Source: a virus | Length of the DNA: 64,000 nucleotides | Reading direction: 5' to 3' (one strand) | IMG/VR virus record: IMGVR_UViG_3300037504_000682 | Span: 35,176-99,175 of that record | Part shown: in pieces, positions 8,332 through 64,000 of the stretch | Position numbering within the stretch: the stretch's first letter is position 1 | Layout: the number at the start of each line of letters is the position of its first letter | Notes under the pieces: model-generated | Databases searched by the model: none | What the model saw: the letters and a program-made list of their open reading frames with translations, nothing else | What the model was told of the DNA's origin: nothing | Position numbers and translations under genes: made by a program

Positions 8332-9237
8332 ATGAAAAGGTGGGACCGATTAATCGACCGTTTCGCTACCGGCAAGGCCGTCCGCCGCAAGCCGGTGACC
8401 GTCGAGTGGTATCGCCAAAGGCTCAGTCACTGGGCCGAATTCACAACTAGCCGCAAGCTCAAGCCCAAAAAAGTAAAAGCTAAACATCTTGACAAGTTCT
8501 TTGCCGGCCTTAGAGAGGCCGGATACACCGCCAATACCATCAAAGGCACCGAAACCGCCCTTCGGACTTTTTTCGGCTGGTTGGTCCGCCGGGGCAAGAT
8601 GAAGCGCAATCCGTTCGACCGCTTCGAGCCGGTTGAGGTTCCCCGCCAGTCGCAGCCGATCATCCGGCTGGAGTACGCTTACCGGATGATCCGGGCGGCC
8701 GAAGCCGACGATTCCGTGATCGCCCGCCGGGACGCCGCTATTATGCGCTTCCTGCTCAGCACCGGAGCGCGTAGAGAGGAGGTGGTTTCTGTCAGATGGG
8801 AGTGGCTCGACCTGGCCGGCGGCCTGGTCAAGTTGCGGGGCAAATTCGGCCACGAACGGTTGATTCCACTCGTGGCGACCACCGTCACGGCCCTGGCGAT
8901 CTGGATCGAGGCCCGGCCAGCCAGTGACTGGCTGTTTGTCAGCCTGAAGGCTAACCAGTACAATCAAGTCGGGGACAAGCTGGCGGTCAATACGATCAAC
9001 AAGCTGCTTGACCGCTGGAAAATCGCGGCCGGCCTGCCAGAAGAGGCCGAGGTCAATCCCCACGCCTGGCGACGCAGGTTCGCCACGGAGCTGGCCAAAG
9101 CCGGAGATCCGTTCCGGCTCCAGACCCTGCTGGGTCATCTGGATATGAACACGACAAAAAAATACATCCTCGATCAGCCCGATATTTTGAGGGAGATGAT
9201 CGAGCGCTATGGGCCGGGAATCAAAGGCGATACGTGA
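8332..9237 (+). CDS. int: Tyrosine site-specific integrase
   Basis: The 301-residue protein has an N-terminal SAM-like DNA-binding domain (residues about 1-105) and a catalytic domain with the tyrosine-recombinase set: arginine in STGARREEV (about 143-151), HAWRRRF (about 244-250, the H-x-x-R box), GHLDMNTTKKYI (about 269-280) with the nucleophilic tyrosine. A clear AGGAGG site lies ahead of ATG 8332, and TATAAT at 8244-8249 is a likely -10. A tRNA-Leu-like sequence begins 43 bases after the stop, the usual place for attP beside its integrase. It should catalyse integration and excision of this phage. Confidence 0.95.
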   Translation: MKRWDRLIDRFATGKAVRRKPVTVEWYRQRLSHWAEFTTSRKLKPKKVKAKHLDKFFAGLREAGYTANTIKGTETALRTFFGWLVRRGKMKRNPFDRFEPVEVPRQSQPIIRLEYAYRMIRAAEADDSVIARRDAAIMRFLLSTGARREEVVSVRWEWLDLAGGLVKLRGKFGHERLIPLVATTVTALAIWIEARPASDWLFVSLKANQYNQVGDKLAVNTINKLLDRWKIAAGLPEEAEVNPHAWRRRFATELAKAGDPFRLQTLLGHLDMNTTKKYILDQPDILREMIERYGPGIKGDT

Positions 9238-27524: not shown

Positions 27525-28294
27525 AATACATTTTAGATGGCAGGTTTTGGGTGAGCTGGCAAAACCTGAATAGAAAGTTCGACCGGCTCGGAAATCGGAT
27601 CAAGCAAGGCTCCGGCTTCTGGCACGGCCGGGCCTGGATACACAAGTCTGAGGGTAGATTTTCTGCCAAGGTTGAGTGGAACTTCAAATCTAGCTTTTGT
27701 TTCATCGGCCTATCGGTTGGTGGCGACGAGAACGACCTTGGGTTCCATGTCGCCCTGCCGCCGGTGGCCATTTGGGTGAGTGTCGCCGGCATTGTGCCGC
27801 GACGCTGGGTCAAAAACCTCGATTGGTGGTATCGACCCTGGCCGAAAGAGGTCGACCTCACCGTTTACGCCGGCAGCCTGTGGTGGAAACTGTGGCGCAG
27901 CGAAAGCGACTGGATGGACGACGCCACTGGCTGGGAAGGCAACTTCAACTTCGTTGATTTCTTTTTGGGCCGGGATAAATGCCGCCACGAGACGCTTTAC
28001 GAGATCGACGAGATGGAGGTCCGGCTCAAAGACGGCGATTATCCGGTCTCGATCCGTATTTTCCGCAGCTACTGGGACCGGCCACGCTGGCTCACCCGCT
28101 CCATTGTTCGGGCCACGGTTACATCCCTGGACGAAAGCGGCGTTCCCACTGGTGACGAAAAGTTCGGAAGCGACAACAACACCATCTCCTCCACCTTCCC
28201 GGCTTCAACCATCCGGGAGGCGGTCGAGAAATTCTGCGAAGACATCGAGATCGCCCGGCAGAGATATGGGTATTACCGGAGGGTGGGCTCGTGA
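27521..28294 (+). CDS. Trp-rich hypothetical protein
   Basis: GTG 27521 in a GTGA overlap, with AGGAGAG upstream, gives 257 residues. It is unusually rich in Trp (for example LDWWYRPWPKE and SLWWKLWRSESDW). Similar Trp-rich proteins occur in several phages without known function. It overlaps the next start in an ATGA-type junction. No catalytic motif seen. Confidence 0.6.
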   Translation: MKYILDGRFWVSWQNLNRKFDRLGNRIKQGSGFWHGRAWIHKSEGRFSAKVEWNFKSSFCFIGLSVGGDENDLGFHVALPPVAIWVSVAGIVPRRWVKNLDWWYRPWPKEVDLTVYAGSLWWKLWRSESDWMDDATGWEGNFNFVDFFLGRDKCRHETLYEIDEMEVRLKDGDYPVSIRIFRSYWDRPRWLTRSIVRATVTSLDESGVPTGDEKFGSDNNTISSTFPASTIREAVEKFCEDIEIARQRYGYYRRVGS

Positions 28295-29060: not shown

Positions 29061-29259
29061 CGGCCGTGAAATCCGAATAGCCAACCACTGCCCCTACTGC
29101 CAGCTTGATTCCGGCGGCCGGCATGCCCCCGACTGCCCCCTCCTCCGGCCGGCCTGGACAAACTCTCCCCCTGCTCCACCCCCGCCCTCTACATTATTAA
29201 ACGCACGTTTGGAATTCAAGGCCGACAATGCCGGATCCGCTAGTCGTTCAACTCGCTAA
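29041..29259 (+). CDS. Small zinc-ribbon-like protein overlapping MuF start
   Basis: GTG 29041 gives 72 residues with CPYC (about 17-20) and C in DCPLL (about 32), followed by a proline-rich stretch. It overlaps the next gene by 32 bases. The palindrome AAACGCACGTTT (29199-29210) lies within its 3' end. Similar CPYC short proteins occur in phages. Moderate certainty. Confidence 0.45.
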   Translation: MIQTTTDGREIRIANHCPYCQLDSGGRHAPDCPLLRPAWTNSPPAPPPPSTLLNARLEFKADNAGSASRSTR

Positions 29260-32200
29260 CCAATTTCGGGAGCAGCTCGACGGCCGGGCCAATGAGGCCA
29301 TCGAGCAGATGGCCGGCGAGTGGCTCAAGGTCGAGGAGCGCCTGAAGGCTGACATCGAGCTTTTGGCCGCCGAACTGGCCGCCGCGCCCGGCGAGGTCAA
29401 GCTCAGCCCGATGACCGAGACGGTCAAGCTGATGCAGGAGGCCGGCTACGCGCCGGATTACATCCTCCAGCTCCTGGCCACCCAGGGCATTTTCGAGATA
29501 CCGGAGGTGCCCCAGCCCCAGGCCAAGCAACTCAAGGACTGGCAGCTGGCCCAGCTGCGGCGCTACGTCCGCCTCCTGGTCCAAGTGCAGGCCGAGATCG
29601 CCCGCTTCACCGGCCAGACGGCCGCCCCGATTATCGAGCAGCTCCAGGCCGACGCGGCCTATGAGGGTATTCAAAACGCCCTGACGATGATCGAAGCCTC
29701 GGTGTCAAGTGCCGGCGGCAGTACGGTCGATCTCGCCTTTGACCAGCTCAATACCGCCGCCGTGGAGAACATCGTGGCTATCGCCGGGGCCGGCCGGCCC
29801 CTGGGCGACCTGCTCCAGGCCGCTTATCCCCTGTCAGCCAACGGGATTACCAATGAGCTCGTCTACGGCACAGCCAAGGGCCAGAACCCGCGCAAAACAG
29901 CCCGGTCGATTATTGAAAATGGCCTGGCCCAGGGGCTCAACCATATGCTACTGGTGGCCAGAGACCAGCAGGTTAGAGCGGTCAGGGAGTCAGCCCGGCA
30001 GCAGTACGCCCGGGCCGGCATCGAGGGCTACCGCCGGCTGGCCGCCAAGCAGGCTCGCACCTGCCTGGCCTGCCTGGCCCTGGACGGCACCATCTGGCCC
30101 ACCTCGGAGCTGATGGCGCTTCATCCCCAAGATAGATGCTCGATGCTTCCGCTGGTGCCCGGCTTTGAGCCCGTTCAGTTTGAGACCGGCCCCGAGTGGT
30201 TCATGAAGCAGCCGGCTTCGGTCCAGAAGGAAATGATGGGCCCGGGCAAGTATGAGCTTTGGAAGGCCGGCGGCTTCGAGTTTGACCAGCTGGCCACGAT
30301 CAAGCCCAATCGCACCTGGGGGCCGAGCGCCCAGGTGACCACCCTCAAGGACCTGCAGCGCGGCCGGGGCGGATTCCGGCCGCCGGGCTCACCGACCCCG
30401 GCCCAACCCCGACCACCTACTGGACCGGTCGCCCCTGGCCCTTCTCCCCTGCCCGGCCTGGATCACGAGGCCCTGATGATCAAGGACCTGCACCAGCTGG
30501 GGCCGGATTGGGGCGAGCAGACCAACTGGAAAAACCAGAGCTACGGCGGAATCCTCTTTGACGACCAGGGTCGGGTGCTGCTGCGAAAGCCGACCGGCGA
30601 ATTCGGCGGCTACGCCTGGACTTTCCCCAAGGGCAAGATGAACAACTCCAAGGAGCACCCTGTCCAGACGGCCTTAATGGAAGTCGAGGAGGAGACCGGC
30701 CACGACGGCCAGATCATCGGCCTGGTGCCGGGCCAGTTCAAGGGAGACACCGGCCAGACCAACTTCTTCCTGATGAAATCCAACAGCTGGGACCGGTCGT
30801 TGATGGATGACGAGACCGAGCGGTTGGTCTGGGCTACGCCGGAGGAGGCCAAGAAGCTCATACGGCAGGGGGCCAACGAGAAGGGGGTCAAGCGGGACCT
30901 GGCCGTCCTGGAGGCGGCCACGAAGGCCCACGGCGACCTGCTGAGTGGGGAGGCGACCAACGACTACCTGTTCGACCAGAAGGGGCCGGTGGTGATCACC
31001 AACTTTAGTCAGCCACTCCTGGATCACATCGAAAAGCAGGCGGGGCAGATCAGCCACCAGAACAAAATGGAGCTACTTGTAACCAAGGCTGACATTGGTA
31101 AAAGCGGCACCAAGGGCATAGTAGTTCTGGATAGCGACGGGAGCCTGAAGGCTCTGGCCACTTATGATGACAAGTCCAGTGACTATGTATATGTTCATAA
31201 CGCCTGGGGCGATACAGTTACCAACGGAAAAACCCTGCTTATAAACTTGGGGCAGATAGCCGCTAAGGACGGCAGGGGTATTATCTTGACCCCCAAAGCA
31301 AGCAAGGTCAAACAATCCGCACCAAAAGTTGGATACAAGTCAACCGACGATGGCGGGCCGGTCACCCCGGGCTCGTTTTACCTTGAATCTGACTGGATGA
31401 AGGAATGGAAAAAGGCCCCGACCAAGTTCAAGCCGCCCAGTCCCCGGCCGCTTCCGCCTGAGCCCAAGGGGTACGACCGTAAGACCATCCCTCCAACTGA
31501 CGCCAAGCTAACGGGTGAGATAAAAGAGCTGGCCCAGGCGGACTTCGGCGATCCCCTGGCCTTGAAGGGAGCCCAGGTGGCGGCTGATAAAATCGCCGGC
31601 GGCCAGAAGGGGTTTATGTACGCCTCCGACACCGGCAAGCTGAAGGGGGTCATTTCTTACGAGGAGCAGGGTTCGATCATCAAGGTCGGCTCGGCCGGCT
31701 TCAGCGACTTCGAGACCAACCTGGCGGGCCTCCAGGACGTGGTGAAAATAGCCAAGCAAGCCGGCAAGGACTTCGTTACCTTCGCCCCGAAGGGCCCCAT
31801 CTTGGACCAGTACCTCAAATGGGGCTTTGAGGTCAACACCGCTTACGGCAACGGCGCTTCCCTAATTCTCAAGAAGCAGAACTTCGATGAGTGGCTGGGT
31901 GACCCGGCCAAATACGGCAAGGAGCACCGCTCCTCGCTGGAGCCCACCCCCTCCGGCAGCTACAGCCCGCCACCCCAGCCGACCAGCAGCGGTTACAAGG
32001 CCACGCCCCGGCCCCGGGACCCTGACCCCCTGCCGGATCCGGCTCCCCTGCCCGACCCTGACGATTTCCCGCCGGACCCGGCCGTGCTGACCGTCGTCCG
32101 TAAACTGGGTGGGTCGACCGGGGCCGAGCTGGTCGAGGACGTGGTCACCGGCCGGCGCTACGTCCGCAAGCGAGGCGGTAGCCCTGACCACATCCTGGAG

Positions 32201-33592
32201 GAGGTTCACGCCGATGCGGCCTACCAGGCGGCCGGGGCTAACGTGCCCCGCTTCAAGTTGTACGACACCCCCGCCGGCCCGGTCAAGTTGGCCGAGTTCA
32301 TCGAGGGCGAGGTGCTGGGCGACGTGCTAAAGAAGGGCGGGGCCCGGGCCAAGAAGGCAAGAGAGGCGATGAAGGAGAATTTTGGGGCCGACGCGCTGTT
32401 TGGCAATCGGGACGTGATAGGCGCGGACTACGACAACGTCCTGGTTGATAAGTCTGGCCGGGTCTGGCGCATCGACAATGGCGGGTCGTTCAGGTTCCGG
32501 GCAATGGGCGAGCGAAAGACCGACTGGGACGATTACCCTCTTGAGTTCTGGTCGATGCGAGACAAGCAATACAGGCAGGTTCACGATTTGTTTGGCGACC
32601 TGGACTTTTATTCCATCTCCGACCAGGTAATGGAGCTAAAGCGCCGGCGGGAGGCAATCCTGGCCGCCGTGCCGGAGGAGGTCCGGGACGTGCTGGATCG
32701 CCGGCTGCGAAACATCACGGATATGGCCACCACCGGCCAGGCGATGCAGGGCGATGATTTCCAGGTCGACTATGCCGACGGAATGAGCCGGCAGCGAATG
32801 GAGATGCGCAAGGGCGGGCTGACTGATCAGATGCCCCTGGCGATGGGGATTAAGGGATACGAGAAGGCCAGCGCCAAGAAGCGTTACAAAGGGGCTGTGA
32901 ATACCAGCGCGGTCTACGACGAACAGGGCCGACAGTTCGACCGGCTGCGGGGTGGGAACTCACTGATCGGCCAACTTAAGGGCTTTGTGAACAAGGCCGG
33001 CGGTAATTATGACCTGGTCGTCAAGTGGGCCAGCGAACAGGCCGGCAGTAGCTGGTCGCCGGCATCTCAGGCGCTGAAATACCACGTGGTCCAACAGATG
33101 AACAAGGCCGAAAAGCTGTTCTGGTGGCGAGATGGCAAATCAAAAGCCGAGAAGTATTATAAATCCATAGCCAGCGATAAGGCTGCCTATGATAAAACCT
33201 TCCAGGCCCTGCACGCCTTTACCCAGGAGATGTTGACCAGAATGGACCTGCCGAATAAGACAGAAAGAGATACAATCTTCTTGCTCAGATCGGAGGCGTC
33301 CAATATTTTGAGCAGGAACGGGATAAAACCGGGAGACACAGGGGCCACGATGCCCCGGGGGGCCATTGAGAGTACATCTGTTTTTGGAGGGGTGTACATC
33401 GGGGGCTCGGAGCTAACTCGACAAGAGGTCCCTTTGCATCGGATAATCGCGCCGTATTTTATGGAAAGGGTCCCAGGCAGCGGGGTAAGTATGTTCTACG
33501 GTGACAACGAAAATGAATTCGTGGTCATTCTCGGGGGCGACCTGCCATTCGACTACGTTGGCAGAAATAACGGGTCGGTTGTCATTGACTGA
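29228..33592 (+). CDS. Giant MuF polyvalent protein: MuF, Nudix, acetyltransferase-like, kinase-like and ADP-ribosyltransferase domains
   Basis: This 1,454-residue protein joins several enzymes to a capsid protein. Residues about 1-330 are MuF (head morphogenesis; RTCLACLALDGTIW near 276-289, then DRCS). About 435-565 is a Nudix hydrolase; its box runs GKMNNSKEHPVQTALMEVEE and ETG. About 585-690 and 760-885 look like GNAT-type or related folds. About 955-1135 is a kinase-like region (GNRDVIGADYDNVLVD, RIDNGGSF). The C-terminus, about 1305-1454, shows R-S-E type ADP-ribosyltransferase motifs: LLRSEAS, ESTSVF and ENEFVV. MuF proteins are packaged, so this is probably injected with the DNA to modify host targets. 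Confidence 0.8.
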   Translation: MPDPLVVQLANQFREQLDGRANEAIEQMAGEWLKVEERLKADIELLAAELAAAPGEVKLSPMTETVKLMQEAGYAPDYILQLLATQGIFEIPEVPQPQAKQLKDWQLAQLRRYVRLLVQVQAEIARFTGQTAAPIIEQLQADAAYEGIQNALTMIEASVSSAGGSTVDLAFDQLNTAAVENIVAIAGAGRPLGDLLQAAYPLSANGITNELVYGTAKGQNPRKTARSIIENGLAQGLNHMLLVARDQQVRAVRESARQQYARAGIEGYRRLAAKQARTCLACLALDGTIWPTSELMALHPQDRCSMLPLVPGFEPVQFETGPEWFMKQPASVQKEMMGPGKYELWKAGGFEFDQLATIKPNRTWGPSAQVTTLKDLQRGRGGFRPPGSPTPAQPRPPTGPVAPGPSPLPGLDHEALMIKDLHQLGPDWGEQTNWKNQSYGGILFDDQGRVLLRKPTGEFGGYAWTFPKGKMNNSKEHPVQTALMEVEEETGHDGQIIGLVPGQFKGDTGQTNFFLMKSNSWDRSLMDDETERLVWATPEEAKKLIRQGANEKGVKRDLAVLEAATKAHGDLLSGEATNDYLFDQKGPVVITNFSQPLLDHIEKQAGQISHQNKMELLVTKADIGKSGTKGIVVLDSDGSLKALATYDDKSSDYVYVHNAWGDTVTNGKTLLINLGQIAAKDGRGIILTPKASKVKQSAPKVGYKSTDDGGPVTPGSFYLESDWMKEWKKAPTKFKPPSPRPLPPEPKGYDRKTIPPTDAKLTGEIKELAQADFGDPLALKGAQVAADKIAGGQKGFMYASDTGKLKGVISYEEQGSIIKVGSAGFSDFETNLAGLQDVVKIAKQAGKDFVTFAPKGPILDQYLKWGFEVNTAYGNGASLILKKQNFDEWLGDPAKYGKEHRSSLEPTPSGSYSPPPQPTSSGYKATPRPRDPDPLPDPAPLPDPDDFPPDPAVLTVVRKLGGSTGAELVEDVVTGRRYVRKRGGSPDHILEEVHADAAYQAAGANVPRFKLYDTPAGPVKLAEFIEGEVLGDVLKKGGARAKKAREAMKENFGADALFGNRDVIGADYDNVLVDKSGRVWRIDNGGSFRFRAMGERKTDWDDYPLEFWSMRDKQYRQVHDLFGDLDFYSISDQVMELKRRREAILAAVPEEVRDVLDRRLRNITDMATTGQAMQGDDFQVDYADGMSRQRMEMRKGGLTDQMPLAMGIKGYEKASAKKRYKGAVNTSAVYDEQGRQFDRLRGGNSLIGQLKGFVNKAGGNYDLVVKWASEQAGSSWSPASQALKYHVVQQMNKAEKLFWWRDGKSKAEKYYKSIASDKAAYDKTFQALHAFTQEMLTRMDLPNKTERDTIFLLRSEASNILSRNGIKPGDTGATMPRGAIESTSVFGGVYIGGSELTRQEVPLHRIIAPYFMERVPGSGVSMFYGDNENEFVVILGGDLPFDYVGRNNGSVVID

Positions 33593-33999: not shown

Positions 34000-34017
34000 A
34001 TTCCTTAGAGAAAATGG

Positions 34018-34292
34018 ATGGCCTTATTTGAGAATAGGCCGACTTGTTTTGTCTGGCCTGGCGGGAAAAATAGGCCGGCTTATAGTGGTCGCTATTTCTC
34101 GGGTGGCCGGAGAGAAATAGAGAGGGTTATAGTTCGACTTGTTTGTCTCGGGTCGCCCGAGAAATTAGCGGAGCTTGTTTGGGAATGAAGGGGCGTTAAT
34201 TTGTGGCCGGGTGGAGAGAAATTAACGATCGGTAAAGGGAGGATAGAGTAGCTTGTTTTATCTGGTCACCAGGGCCTGGCGACCAGAGTTTA
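34018..34292. repeat. Second cluster of hairpin repeats upstream of the CRISPR array
   Basis: About five units related to the 21.3-kb array lie here at spacings of about 47-57 bases. They share ATAGGCCGGCTT and the hairpin pairs CTATTTCTC/GAGAAATAG (34092-34120), GTTAATTT/AAATTAAC (34195-34226) and CTGGTC/GACCAG (34262-34286). They are less regular than the first cluster. No gene is present. They may be origin-like iterons or binding nodes, and they directly abut the CRISPR promoter. Confidence 0.65.
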
Positions 34293-34339
34293 GAACGCGT
34301 GTTCAAAACTGTACAGCGGACTCCTCGGTATGGTAAAAT
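34293..34339 (+). promoter_or_regulatory. Likely CRISPR leader promoter with LexA-like box
   Basis: GAACGCGTGTTC (34293-34304) fits both GAACNNNNGTTC, a Gram-positive-type SOS box, and nearly the AACGNNCGTT motif. TGTACA and, after 18 bases, the extended -10 TGGTAAAAT (34331-34339) follow. Transcription would start near 34346, running into the array at 34374. Confidence 0.5.
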
Positions 34340-34343
34340 GGGA

Positions 34344-34614
34344 TGGAAGTGTAACCCAACCGGCAACCGAAGTCTATTCCCCACACGCGTGGGGGTGAAC
34401 CGAGAACCCGCTGCGGCCGGATGAGCAGGAATCAGCTATTCCCCACACGCGTGGGGGTGAACCGGGCCAGCAGCTGGCCGGGGCGGCCTGGGCCAAGCTA
34501 TTCCCCACACGCGTGGGGGTGAACCGGGGTCCCCGCTTTTGGCCAGTTCGGTCGCGAACTATTCCCTACATACGTGGGGGCGGCGGGTTACACAACGAGA
34601 CTGGAAGTGTAACC
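34344..34614. repeat. GTGTAACC repeats bracketing the CRISPR array
   Basis: TGGAAGTGTAACC occurs at 34344-34356 and again at 34602-34614, as a direct repeat on either side of the array. In addition GGTTACAC (34586-34593) pairs with GTGTAACC (34607-34614) to form an eight-base-pair hairpin just after the last repeat. The direct repeats may mark insertion of the array, or sites for a regulator. Confidence 0.7.
34374..34587 (+). CRISPR. Mini-CRISPR array, type I-E-like repeat, three spacers, no cas genes
   Basis: Three identical 29-base repeats (34374-34402, 34436-34464, 34498-34526) and a fourth degenerate one (34559-34587) flank spacers of 33, 33 and 32 bases (34403-34435, 34465-34497, 34527-34558). 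The repeat begins CTATTCCCCACACGCG and ends GGGTGAACCG, with a CCCCAC/GTGGGG stem, the hallmark of type I-E repeats. Decay of the last repeat puts the leader on the left, in line with the promoter at 34331. No Cas-like protein is encoded in the window, so it would depend on host Cas proteins. Confidence 0.93.
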
Positions 34615-34630
34615 GATACTTGGAGGGGAA

Positions 34631-35215
34631 ATGGCGGAAATCGGCGAGGAGAGACGTATCACAGAGCGCGATGTAATCCAGGTTCGCAAGAAGATCGACA
34701 CCGTCTTGCAAAAAGCCCTGGCGGGCTATGAAACCGACTTCAAGGATTCGGGCGGATATGTGAAGTGGGGCGAGGTTCAACAAGCGGTACATGAGGCGTT
34801 GGGTGATTTCTGGTCAAGGGCAGATCCGGAAATTTGGTTTGACGCAGCCCGGCCGACCATTGTTTGCCTTTGTGGGTCGACCAGGTTCTGGCGGGAATTC
34901 CAGCGGGCCAGCCTGCGCGAAACGATGGCCGGCAAAATCGTCCTGAGCATCGGGGCGGCCACCGGCACCGACGATGAACACTTCGGCAATCTTCCCCAAG
35001 AAGAGTATGACCGGATAAAGGTAGAGCTTGACGAGCTACACCTGAGAAAGATCGACCTGGCGGACGAGGTTCTGATCCTGAATGTCGACGGATACATCGG
35101 CGAGTCGACTGGTCGAGAGTTGGCCTACGCTAGGCGGGCCGGCAAGTTCGTGAGGTTTCTTGAGGATCATCCTGGGATTGGGGGAACGATAAAGGGGGAA
35201 AGGACTGACCAATGA
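34631..35215 (+). CDS. Nucleoside 2-deoxyribosyltransferase-like protein
   Basis: The 194-residue protein has an N-terminal helical region (about 1-70) and a C-terminal Rossmann-like domain. TIVCLCGSTRFWREFQ (about 77-92) and LNVDGYIGESTGRELAYARR (about 153-172) match the nucleoside deoxyribosyltransferase/DUF4406 fold, with the substrate glutamate in GESTGRE. The family cleaves or exchanges N-glycosidic bonds in nucleosides and NAD-like molecules. It begins 43 bases after the CRISPR array and probably shares its transcript. Phage versions may alter nucleotide pools. Confidence 0.75.
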   Translation: MAEIGEERRITERDVIQVRKKIDTVLQKALAGYETDFKDSGGYVKWGEVQQAVHEALGDFWSRADPEIWFDAARPTIVCLCGSTRFWREFQRASLRETMAGKIVLSIGAATGTDDEHFGNLPQEEYDRIKVELDELHLRKIDLADEVLILNVDGYIGESTGRELAYARRAGKFVRFLEDHPGIGGTIKGERTDQ

Positions 35216-38885: not shown

Positions 38886-39187
38886 CAGTAACCGTATCGC
38901 TCAACAGGGATTACAAAATCTTCCCTATCGGCGGCAATATGCCCGGCCGGGAATGGGTCGACTTTTGGCCGACCTTCATCCCCCTCAAGTCCACTCAGGG
39001 TATCTGGGGTGAAATGTCGGAGCCGCCCCGGGATGGAGACGTTATCGCCGCCGATATGGAGTCCGGCCGGCGGGCCTTGTTTGTCGTTCACGGTATGAGA
39101 AGCCTTGATCCGCCCGACTTTTTTTGTGAAGCCTCATTTGTCGGCTACGAGGACGATAACGAGCTGCCGGAATCGGAGGCCAAATGA
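38882..39187 (+). CDS. Small acidic hypothetical protein
   Basis: The 101-residue protein starts in an overlap with the methylase stop. It is beta-rich and ends EDDNELPESEAK. Coupled on both sides (ATGA with the recombinase). No family recognised. Confidence 0.55.
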   Translation: MTVTVSLNRDYKIFPIGGNMPGREWVDFWPTFIPLKSTQGIWGEMSEPPRDGDVIAADMESGRRALFVVHGMRSLDPPDFFCEASFVGYEDDNELPESEAK

Positions 39188-40146
39188 GTCACCTCCCCGC
39201 CCCCCGCACGTCCACCCCGGCCGCTCTCCAGACCGTCATCACCCTATGGGCCGACCACGTCACCGACCCGGCCAGCCCCCGCCGGCGGGACCTGCTGCGG
39301 GACAAGACCAAGGCCGCGCTCGACTTCTTCGAGTTCGCCGGCCGGCCCCCGGCCGCCGTTGGCCCGGTCGAGGTCAAGAATTGGCAGGCCGAACTTGAGG
39401 CCCAGGGGCTGGCCACGTCCACGATCTACGCCAAGATCAGCCGGGTGTCATCGTTCTATAACTGGGCCATCGAGGCCGGCCACGTGGAGCGCAACCCGGT
39501 CGATGAGGCCCGGCCCCGGGCTCCCCGGCCCTACCAGAGCGAGAGCACCCAGTCCCTGAGCGACGACGACGTGGCCCGGCTGCTGGAGGTGGTCCGGGAG
39601 CGAGACGACCTGGTGGGCCGGCGGGATTACGCGATGCTCACCTTGTACTTCTTCTCCGGCAAGCGCCGGCGGGAGATCGTGCAGCTGCGGGCCGGGGACG
39701 TGCGGATCAAGGGAGAGAAGCTGATCATCCGTTCCCAGGTCAAGGGCGGCGACTACGAAGCCTTTGAGGTCGACAACCCTCTGGCCGTCGAGGCCCTCGC
39801 CGCCTATCTGGCCCGGCGGGGTGTCAGCCTGGCCGACCTGGCCGAGGATGCGCCGCTGTGGGTAGTCAGCCGCAAGGCCGGCAAGTATGCCGGTCGAGCC
39901 ATCAGTAGCCACGGTTTCGTGGCCAATTTGAAGCGGTACGCCAGGGCCGCCGGCCTGGGCGACATCCACCTGCACCAGACCCGGCACACGTTTGCGAGGT
40001 GGGTGGGCGAGGAGAGCGGCAGCCTCCAGGAGGCCCAGGCAGCGCTGGGGCATAGGAACGTGGGGACTACCCGGGTGTATCTGCCCCGGGTGGCGGTGAA
40101 GAAGGATCATTATAGCCAGAAGATTAGCGAAAGGTTGGGATTGTGA
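39184..40146 (+). CDS. Second tyrosine recombinase
   Basis: The 320-residue protein has a SAM-like core-binding domain (about 1-105) and a catalytic domain with FSGKRRREIVQL (about 157-168), HQTRHTFARW (about 264-273) and GHRNVGTTRVYLP (about 289-301). The catalytic set looks complete. Unlike the integrase at 8332, it lies within an accessory operon far from the att candidate. It may resolve multimers, invert or mobilise part of the island, or serve as a XerC-like enzyme. It is tightly coupled to flanking genes, so it is not a recent insertion there. Confidence 0.85.
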   Translation: MSHLPAPRTSTPAALQTVITLWADHVTDPASPRRRDLLRDKTKAALDFFEFAGRPPAAVGPVEVKNWQAELEAQGLATSTIYAKISRVSSFYNWAIEAGHVERNPVDEARPRAPRPYQSESTQSLSDDDVARLLEVVRERDDLVGRRDYAMLTLYFFSGKRRREIVQLRAGDVRIKGEKLIIRSQVKGGDYEAFEVDNPLAVEALAAYLARRGVSLADLAEDAPLWVVSRKAGKYAGRAISSHGFVANLKRYARAAGLGDIHLHQTRHTFARWVGEESGSLQEAQAALGHRNVGTTRVYLPRVAVKKDHYSQKISERLGL

Positions 40147-40403: not shown

Positions 40404-41008
40404 AACAAATCGGCATTACCGGCGCTCTGGTTCTACTCATCGCCTTATCTTGCAGCATCTTCTCCGTTCGGATCGGCTCTTCGGTCGGCCGGTCAATCGA
40501 GACCGCCGCCCACCAGCGGGCCGCAGACCGGTCCCAGGCCCGGCAGGAGCGGGACCAGTGGCACCGGCTGGCCATGGAGGAGGCCCGGCAGACAGCGTCG
40601 TACCGGATCGCAGCCAAGCGAGCCACCTGGTACTGGCTGTCCATTTTCGGCATCGGCTCCGGCGCAACCATCATGGTGACCGGGGTTTTATCGGTGGCCT
40701 GGTGGATGATCGGCCGCAGCCGGGCCGCAGTGGAGCGGTCTCGCAGAGAAGCGCGGTTGATTCCGGTCGATCCGGAGACGCGCCAGTTCCCACTGTTCGT
40801 TTACGAGCTGGCCGGCGCTCCCCGCATATACAACCCAAACACCGGCAGCGTGGTGACCCTGGAGGCGGGCCGGGACGAGATACCGATGCTGATCACCGGC
40901 TCATCGGCCACCCAGTTGGCCGGGGCGATTGCCCAGCAGGCGGCTAAAGCCCAGGACGCCGGCAGTGTGGCGATGATAAGCCCGCCGCTGGTGGTGGAGG
41001 ACAAATGA
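40400..41008 (+). CDS. Two-helix membrane protein
   Basis: The 202-residue protein has an N-terminal membrane helix (GALVLLIALSCSIFSVRIG), a charged helical loop (HQRAADRSQARQERDQWHR), a second helix (WYWLSIFGIGSGATIMVTG) and a soluble C-terminal domain. It lies between the recombinase and the sulfurtransferase-like gene, coupled by ATGA junctions. It may be an exclusion or anchor protein. No family recognised. Confidence 0.6.
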   Translation: MKQIGITGALVLLIALSCSIFSVRIGSSVGRSIETAAHQRAADRSQARQERDQWHRLAMEEARQTASYRIAAKRATWYWLSIFGIGSGATIMVTGVLSVAWWMIGRSRAAVERSRREARLIPVDPETRQFPLFVYELAGAPRIYNPNTGSVVTLEAGRDEIPMLITGSSATQLAGAIAQQAAKAQDAGSVAMISPPLVVEDK

Positions 41009-42189
41009 GACTGACCCAACAACCCCTCTTTGGCGACCGGCTCACCCTGATCGAAGCTATCGGCCTGACCGTCGAGTCACTCCAGGCCTACGGCTCCGAC
41101 TACCACCACTGGGTCCTGGCCTTCAGCGGCGGCAAGGATTCAACCGTGGTCGTCTCCCTTCTGGCCTGGCTCATCGAGCAGGGCCACATCGAGCCCCCAC
41201 CGGCCGGGATCACCGTCCTGATGAGCGACACCCGCCAGGAGTTCCTGCCGCTGCACCTGGCCGCCCTGGAGACGCTGAAGGTCGCCCAATCCTGCGGCTT
41301 CAGGGCCCGGGTAGTCCAGCCGCCGTTCGATCATCGGATGTACGTTTATATGCTCGGCCGGGGCGTCCCGCCGGCCAGCAACGTCTTTCGCTGGTGTACC
41401 CGGATACTCAAGGCCGACCCGATGGCCCGGGCCATTGAGGCCCTGGCCGAAACAAACGGCCAGGTGCTGGTCTTGACCGGTGTCCGGCAGGGCGAGAGCG
41501 CGGCCCGGGATCAACGGATCGCTCTCTCGTGCAGCCGGGACGGTGGCGAGTGTGGGCAGGGGTGGTTTCAGAACGCCAGCCGGGACGGGGTGGCCAGCAC
41601 CCTGGCCCCGCTGCTGCACTGGCGATTGTGCCACATCGAGGACTGGCTGCGCTTCTACGCCCCAGAGATCGGCCTGGACAGCCGGCCCATAATCGACATT
41701 TACGGCTTTGAGGAAGACGAGCAGATGAACCTCCGGACCGGCTGCGCCGGCTGTATGCTCATCGAGGAGGACCGGGCCCTGGCCAGGATCGTGCAGCTGC
41801 CGGGGTGGGGCTACCTGGCCCCATTGCAAAGGCTCAAGGCGGTGTATCGGGAGCTGAAGCGGCCCCAGAACCGGCTCAGGAAGTGGGGCGAACGTAAGAA
41901 GGACGGCTCGCTCGGGGCCAAGCAGGGCCGACTGGGCCCGCTTACGATGGAGGCGCGGCGCTGGGGACTGGAGCAGGTGCTGGCCATCCAGGAGGAGATA
42001 AACGGCGCGGCCCGGGTGCTGGGGCGGCCGGAGCTACACCTGATCACCGATGCCGAGCGGGAGAGGGTGCTGGAGCTGATCGAGGCCAACACGTGGCCCA
42101 GGGGCTGGACAGGAGAGGAGCCCCGGGGTGATGAGTTGGTGGATAAGATTGTGGCCGAGGGGGTGACCCTGCCGGTGTTGATTTCTTAG
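41005..42189 (+). CDS. PAPS-reductase-superfamily protein (DndC-like candidate)
   Basis: The 394-residue protein has the PP-loop FSGGKDSTVVVSLL (about 38-52) that binds ATP/PAPS, RWCTRILKADP (about 129-139) and RTGCAGCMLIEED (about 244-256), where the two cysteines can hold an iron-sulfur cluster. This matches the PAPS reductase/DndC/sulfurtransferase superfamily. The length and late GCxGC motif recall DndC, which puts sulfur in the DNA backbone. No DndD/E genes are visible, so tRNA/DNA base thiolation or other adenylation chemistry is possible. Confidence 0.75.
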   Translation: MRLTQQPLFGDRLTLIEAIGLTVESLQAYGSDYHHWVLAFSGGKDSTVVVSLLAWLIEQGHIEPPPAGITVLMSDTRQEFLPLHLAALETLKVAQSCGFRARVVQPPFDHRMYVYMLGRGVPPASNVFRWCTRILKADPMARAIEALAETNGQVLVLTGVRQGESAARDQRIALSCSRDGGECGQGWFQNASRDGVASTLAPLLHWRLCHIEDWLRFYAPEIGLDSRPIIDIYGFEEDEQMNLRTGCAGCMLIEEDRALARIVQLPGWGYLAPLQRLKAVYRELKRPQNRLRKWGERKKDGSLGAKQGRLGPLTMEARRWGLEQVLAIQEEINGAARVLGRPELHLITDAERERVLELIEANTWPRGWTGEEPRGDELVDKIVAEGVTLPVLIS

Positions 42190-44088: not shown

Positions 44089-44880
44089 ATGTTCAAATCA
44101 ATCAGCTTGCTCTTTTGGTTCCTTTTCCCGCTTCTGTCCCTGTCCCTTGCGGACGGCGACGGAGGCGGCGGCGGTCAGCCACCCTCCACCCCTCCCCCAG
44201 CCACCCCACCGGCCCCTAACCCCGACCCGGGCGTGGCCGCCGGTATCAACAACCTGATCGAGCGATACAACTCTGATATGCGGGCGGTAATCGACAAGCT
44301 GTACACCGAAAACTACTCGTACCGCGAAACAATCCGGGACCTCAAAGAGCAAAACGACGACCTCAAGAGCCGAATTCCCAAGGACAGCCAGGCAGTGCTG
44401 CCCAAGGAAGACGCGCAGCTCCTGGAGCAGTACAAGGAGCTGGGCGAACCAGACGCAATCAAGGAGCTCCAGGGTGAGCTTGAAACCACCAAGGAGCAGC
44501 TAGGAGCGCTCCAGAAGGACCAGGTACTCCGGGACGTGGCTGAGGCCGCCGGCTTCAAGCTGCCGGTCTTAAAGCGCCTCGGCGCTGAGCTGGACTACGA
44601 GCTGCGGGAAGTCGAGCAGGACGGGGAGAAGCAGACCGTCGCCTACGTCAAAAATGGCGATGGCGAGGCCAAACCCCTGGCCGACTACGCCAAGGATCAA
44701 TGGGCCGACTTTATGCCGGCCCTCACGGCCGAACCCCAGCCGCCGGCCCAGCAGGGCACCCGATACCCGGCCCAGGACGCGGGCTCGCCAACCCCCAAGG
44801 GCAACGTGGTGGATGAATTCATTTCCGGCACTAACAAAGCCCGCGCCGAAAAACCTAATCCGTTAGTCAAGCAGCAATAA
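44089..44880 (+). CDS. Scaffold-like protein with N-terminal signal-like hydrophobic segment
   Basis: The 263-residue protein precedes decoration and capsid genes. Its middle is coiled coil (about 60-160, e.g. RETIRDLKEQNDDLKSR) and its end is a basic tail (KARAEKPNPLVKQQ), as in GP20-type scaffolds. Unusually, residues 1-21 (MFKSISLLFWFLFPLLSLSL) look like a signal peptide, followed by a Gly/Pro linker. AAGGAG eight bases before the ATG supports this start. It may tether prohead assembly to the membrane, or the true scaffold starts later. Confidence 0.75.
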   Translation: MFKSISLLFWFLFPLLSLSLADGDGGGGGQPPSTPPPATPPAPNPDPGVAAGINNLIERYNSDMRAVIDKLYTENYSYRETIRDLKEQNDDLKSRIPKDSQAVLPKEDAQLLEQYKELGEPDAIKELQGELETTKEQLGALQKDQVLRDVAEAAGFKLPVLKRLGAELDYELREVEQDGEKQTVAYVKNGDGEAKPLADYAKDQWADFMPALTAEPQPPAQQGTRYPAQDAGSPTPKGNVVDEFISGTNKARAEKPNPLVKQQ

Positions 44881-63743: not shown

Positions 63744-63977
63744 CTACGCGGCCGGGTCGTTCCGGCCTTTATCTGTCAAATCGTCCGCCGCTTTCAGCTC
63801 AGCGGCGATGATTTCCATCAGCCTGTCGCTGCGCACCACTCGCCGAAGGAGCGCCCGCCAGGTGGGCTCCCCGGCCGTCTGGCCGGCGGTGGCTACGGAG
63901 CCGGTGGCAGCGGCCAGGTCGTCCAGCCGCTGCCAATCCTCCGGAGCGAGCGTGGTGCTACGTCGCTCTTGTGGCAT
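63744..63977 (-). CDS. Minus-strand small protein, possible DNA-binding
   Basis: ATG 63977 gives 77 residues. RSTTLAPEDWQRLDDLAAATG followed by WRALLRRVVRSDRL has a ribbon-helix-helix-like rhythm, but no clear match. GAGG lies about nine bases upstream. It is the first gene of a minus-strand unit and may be a regulator of it. Confidence 0.55.
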   Translation of the reverse strand: MPQERRSTTLAPEDWQRLDDLAAATGSVATAGQTAGEPTWRALLRRVVRSDRLMEIIAAELKAADDLTDKGRNDPAA

Positions 63978-64000
63978 CGGATTACCTCAATAGGTAGGCG

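Follow-up and report, generated by a model that had tools for sequence, protein, structure and literature searches.

Structure and proposed role of a phage CRISPR array

How does a set of regularly spaced CRISPR repeats come to lie among the genes of a phage, and what might it do there? The window, that is the whole 64,000-nucleotide stretch analysed, corresponds to positions 35176-99175 of an IMG/VR virus record 99,175 bases long (IMGVR_UViG_3300037504_000682). In this window a CRISPR array spans 34374-34587 and comprises four 29-nt repeats, three of them identical and the last decayed, at spacings of 62, 62 and 61 bases. An initial annotation, made from the letters alone, had described just these repeats, with spacers of 33, 33 and 32 bases, and the coordinates agree.

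34374-34402, + strand: CRISPR repeat 1, CTATTCCCCACACGCGTGGGGGTGAACCG; 28 of 29 bases as in Chloroflexota type I-E repeats
34403-34435, + strand: spacer 1, 33 nt; without a match
34436-34464, + strand: CRISPR repeat 2, same as repeat 1, CTATTCCCCACACGCGTGGGGGTGAACCG
34465-34497, + strand: spacer 2, 33 nt, GC-rich; chance-like matches only
34498-34526, + strand: CRISPR repeat 3, same as repeat 1, CTATTCCCCACACGCGTGGGGGTGAACCG
34527-34558, + strand: spacer 3, 32 nt; tyrosine-integrase motif FATELAKSGD(P) encoded on its reverse complement
34559-34587, + strand: decayed terminal repeat, CTATTCCCTACATACGTGGGGGCGGCGGG; predicted hairpin retained, 3' handle gone

The geometry is canonical for type I-E: the 29-nt repeat has a short GC stem of 7 bp and an 8-nt 3' handle (GTGAACCG), the spacers are 32-33 nt long and the distal repeat is decayed. 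The type I-E assignment, first made from the repeat ends and stem, is supported by the identity of the repeat to host I-E repeats at 28 of 29 bases. A 20-mer scan found no CRISPR-spaced repeats in the window besides this array, and there was no Rfam match around it. The phage mini-array is real and probably functional.

The window had been reported to lack Cas-like genes, and this extends to the whole 99-kb record: a tblastn panel that was positive on the cas operons of host loci detected none of the I-E Cas genes in its 99,175 bases, and the Cas1 Pfam model had no match in the virus. With structural genes on both sides, few spacers and both Cas searches negative, the array has the features of a virus-borne mini-array, in a record that is perhaps incomplete. 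The product of 41005-42189, a PAPS-reductase-like protein, resembles DndC and phage CysH-like enzymes and alone is no evidence for a type IV system. The phage is temperate and probably present as a prophage; the "small temperate siphovirus" of the initial annotation is not simply small, since the 99-kb record has two structural modules, its terminase, portal and tape-measure genes each being present twice. An internal stretch at record positions 28012-28268 shares 95% identity with the final 256 bases (98919-99175; window 63744-64000), and the record may represent a tandem of two related prophages or a composite assembly.

Repeat kinship and likely host

Exact copies of bases 2-29 of the repeat are present in 14 GTDB stretches, nearly all titled Chloroflexi/Anaerolineales, nine of which carry I-E cas genes (tblastn, E. 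coli and Chloroflexota panel). The repeat copies adjoining these cas genes (L002-L008, L010, L011) agree with the phage repeat at 28 of 29 bases, the phage having C for G at base 1; this first base is C in all phage copies and G in the intact host copies seen. Profile searches named Cas1e, Cas3e, Cas6e, Cas7e and Cas8e beside host repeats. Of 396 genomes of the class Anaerolineae, 3 contain relatives of the phage portal, at ~40% identity; in eight IMG/VR contigs portal relatives were found at 36-50% identity. Because a repeat equal at 28 of 29 bases lies beside I-E cas genes and portal relatives occur in Anaerolineae genomes, the host is likely to be of Anaerolineae type and to have a matching I-E system. 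The comparison with host I-E arrays that the initial annotation had proposed thus yields a host group with a near-identical repeat and I-E cas genes, which answers its proviso that the absence of such a host would count against a phage-borne array.

The exact repeat was found in IMG/VR only in this virus record, and the array as DNA was not found in phage records. Immediately before repeat 1 the phage sequence GAAGT resembles the host GAAGG; the remaining leader differs, and beyond the similar GAAG end no host-like leader precedes the array. A solitary pair of repeats around a single spacer in a Chloroflexota genome (L015:4166-4256) was considered as another mobile mini-array and rejected, its glycosyltransferase gene neighbours indicating that it is probably a chromosomal remnant.

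Genomic setting

The array is preceded by genes for TerL, the portal (assigned by its relatives and position) and a head-morphogenesis protein, and followed by those for the major head protein and tape measure. It lies in an accessory block of 10.5 kb, between the end of the head gene at 33592 and the next syntenic gene at 44089, together with a small widely shared gene, a PNK3P-type phosphatase, a C5 methyltransferase, an integrase and the PAPS-reductase-like gene. The equivalent interval of the nearest relative (L140, 50% portal identity) measures about 2.2 kb, and the portion of L140 compared showed no I-E-like array.

34310-34339, + strand: promoter-like site, TGTACA-18-TAAAAT with TG before the -10 element, from a consensus scan
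34344-34356, + strand: upstream copy of a 13-bp direct repeat, TGGAAGTGTAACC
34602-34614, + strand: downstream copy, TGGAAGTGTAACC; a hairpin is predicted between its last bases and GGTTACAC just 5'
34631-35215, + strand: gene that comes next after the array; C-terminal part shared with many unrelated, array-less phage contigs

The initial annotation had given the array a likely promoter of its own and a place in an accessory operon. The sigma-70-like site supports the first at the consensus level (one site observed versus 0.3 expected in shuffles), and the array does lie in the 5' leader of the operon. TGGAAGTGTAACC has two copies in the window, even at 2 mismatches, and sharing of at least 13 bp between flanks was seen at 2 of about 4000 control positions. 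When the sequence is joined at TGGAAGTGTAACC, the promoter is followed by a short leader, GGAGG and the ATG of the gene at 34631, and for this reason the array looks inserted between the promoter and the ribosome-binding site of an existing operon.

Three further features of this region may be mentioned. The 1454-aa protein encoded at 29228-33592 combines a NUDIX hydrolase domain with a Mu F-like head-morphogenesis part. The intergenic stretch 34000-34260 has several similar hairpin-forming units with (G/A)(A/G)CTTGTTT-like boxes and no Rfam match. A second tyrosine integrase is encoded at 39184-40146, in the accessory block 3' of the array, the other being at 8332-9237.

Spacer 3 and the integrase motif

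The reverse complement of spacer 3 reads TTC GCG ACC GAA CTG GCC AAA AGC GGG GAC CC, or FATELAKSGD(P), and the integrase gene of the phage at 8332-9237 has FATELAKAGDP at the corresponding place.

9079-9110, - strand: imperfect spacer 3 counterpart in the phage's own integrase gene; 7 mismatches, 5' flank AAC

The initial annotation had found no useful spacer match in the window; this is incorrect for spacer 3, which agrees with the complement of 9079-9110 at 25 of 32 bases. The mismatches fall at spacer positions 3, 6, 10, 11, 21, 24 and 27, and five of the seven differences are synonymous. In its own record the best match of spacer 3 has 7 mismatches, versus at least 9 in 300 shuffles and at least 8 in 600 random host 32-mers, and the 10-aa match scores 46 versus 21-32 in every other frame. 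Most of the other Anaerolineae integrases fetched have RHSFATHLL-GGADL at the place of the motif.

The PAM of type I-E is in general AAG, which may not be that of this host. By the usual I-E rules, self-targeting of the phage's own integrase appears unlikely from the sequence, because its flank is AAC rather than AAG and because of the seven mismatches. Since the own gene lacks the AAG PAM, the integrase of a relative, not that of the phage itself, is the likely target of spacer 3. The flank of such a target would read AAG if its proline codon were CCC followed by TTN, as the Pro-Phe context of the phage's own gene allows.

In the spacer search that the initial annotation had called for, spacer 3 resembled the carrier's own integrase family, and no exact protospacer of any spacer was found in phage and plasmid records or in 396 Anaerolineae-class genomes. 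Blastn against the phage and plasmid records gave chance-level GC-rich pieces only, and spacers 1 and 2 had no convincing match. Anaerolineae matches of spacer 2 (best E 1.3e-5) were dropped, the best being gap-broken and in an ordinary chromosomal gene. Relaxed-pattern scans of IMG/VR with spacers 1 and 3, one pattern each, gave no match; nor did a degenerate DNA pattern for FATELAKSGDP with an AGY serine codon in IMG/VR, or spacer 3 at 3 mismatches in 298 class genomes. Among the IMG/VR portal relatives neither a close integrase relative nor the spacers were present, and matches of host spacers to the phage were no better than those of shuffled ones.

What the array may do

The array structure, its near-identity to host I-E repeats, the absence of Cas from the record and the integrase-motif match in spacer 3 are observed. 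Because its repeats copy the repeat of the likely hosts and spacer 3 matches the integrase family of the phage's own group, it is probable that this is a virus-borne I-E mini-array in a temperate Anaerolineae-type phage, which uses host Cas against competing mobile elements. The phage's accessory-operon promoter would drive the array RNA, host Cas6e would cleave this RNA at its repeat hairpins, and the three crRNAs would be used by host Cascade/Cas3 against competing elements. Spacer 3 would target a related temperate phage in its integrase gene, whereas the phage's own integrase would escape because its flank is not AAG and because it differs from the spacer at seven bases, of which one is a seed mismatch other than that at the tolerated sixth base. 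In this the initial annotation, which had proposed a phage-borne, I-E-like and cas-less array that probably borrows host Cas against rivals, is supported.

We also consider a more speculative and doubtful extension, that the array is a replaceable cassette which entered the operon leader at the 13-bp repeat, for which the operon promoter serves as leader, and which host Cas1-Cas2 extended within the phage; the last step is proposed because the first base C, seen only in the phage, is common to all four repeats. If this were true, a temperate phage would keep its own updatable memory against relatives that compete for its host.

Alternatively, the repeat RNAs may act as a decoy that occupies host Cas6e/Cascade and so blunts host immunity, in the manner of the solitary-repeat RNA anti-CRISPRs (Racrs). 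Host-mimicking phage repeats do inhibit CRISPR-Cas (PMC10651486), solitary repeats make up 23 of the 64 repeat groups in our scan of virus contigs, and the promoter-like site is immediately 5' of the array. However, a decoy needs neither three exact repeats, nor canonical spacer lengths, nor a spacer from an integrase family. Racrs are moreover defined as solitary units, with no other repeat within about 100 bp, and the search of PMC10651486 discards arrays, whereas here four repeats follow each other at 61-62 bases. We regard this explanation as unlikely. It is also quite unlikely that the array is an inert fragment of a host array which recombined into the operon leader and is now decaying. 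The decayed last repeat, the 13-bp direct repeats that flank the insert and the plain promoter and ribosome-binding site left by joining at them would fit such an origin, but decay of the distal repeat is usual in functioning arrays, repeats 1 to 3 do not differ from one another and a promoter-like site is present. Misassembly of a host array with the phage, which the initial annotation had named as a possible refutation, is very improbable even in a possibly composite record (its near-duplicated end, its two structural modules), as both flanks of the array are in the phage accessory operon, all phage repeats have C at base 1 where the intact host repeats seen have G, neither a host leader nor a cas gene adjoins the array and the suspicious junctions are >25 kb away.

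Comparison with known mini-arrays

The initial annotation had considered such an array unusual for a phage of this kind, and this part of its reading is not supported. Mini-arrays and single repeats have been described from many phages and prophages, with spacers aimed at related viruses among the published precedents (PMC11656645, PMC6858448), the CRISPR arrays of C. difficile prophages are expressed (PMC6079278), solitary phage repeats function as RNA anti-CRISPRs (PMC10651486), and 61 IMG/VR stretches have similar repeats. The portogloboviruses SPV1 and SPV2 of Sulfolobales (PMC6858448) likewise have cas-less mini-arrays with few spacers, host-like repeats and their own promoter; the spacers target relatives rather than the virus itself, as is proposed here. 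They are however archaeal and have host-like leaders, whereas the present array is in a bacterial tailed phage, has a type I-E repeat and three spacers, and has an operon promoter without a recognisable host leader. The Clostridioides difficile prophage arrays (PMC6079278) are also from temperate phages, rely on host Cas as the present array would, and have been proposed to block competing phages; they differ in being of type I-B, in another phylum and with crRNA expression demonstrated. Reviewed phage mini-arrays (PMC11656645) resemble it in their host-matching repeats, the lack of cas genes and, as proposed for spacer 3, spacers against related viruses, but have one or two spacers, compared with three and a decayed last repeat here. 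Racrs (PMC10651486) are similar in that a phage-encoded CRISPR repeat hairpin lies 3' of a promoter, and different in being solitary repeats without spacers.

Our literature search found no papers joining mini-arrays with Chloroflexi. As far as searched, the mini-array is new for phages of Chloroflexota (Anaerolineae), while the kind of strategy is already known. A phage of this group would join the viruses that use host CRISPR machinery in phage-phage competition, and the integrase motif of related temperate phages offers a concrete target.

A degenerate repeat pattern matched 61 stretches of IMG/VR virus contigs (L079-L139), in which we distinguished 64 repeat groups. Of these, 23 consist of a single repeat, 17 of two and 8 of three, and longer groups are fewer. 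Only one of these stretches (L132) has I-E cas genes in the portion examined, and some of the contigs may be host pieces. With this pattern the commonness of I-E mini-arrays is directly measurable. Most of the stretches have one to three repeat copies. Identical arrays recur across independent metagenomes (L080/L119/L130; L086/L139), and in one virus-contig mini-array (L084:8100-8430) parts of the array and its flank are duplicated.
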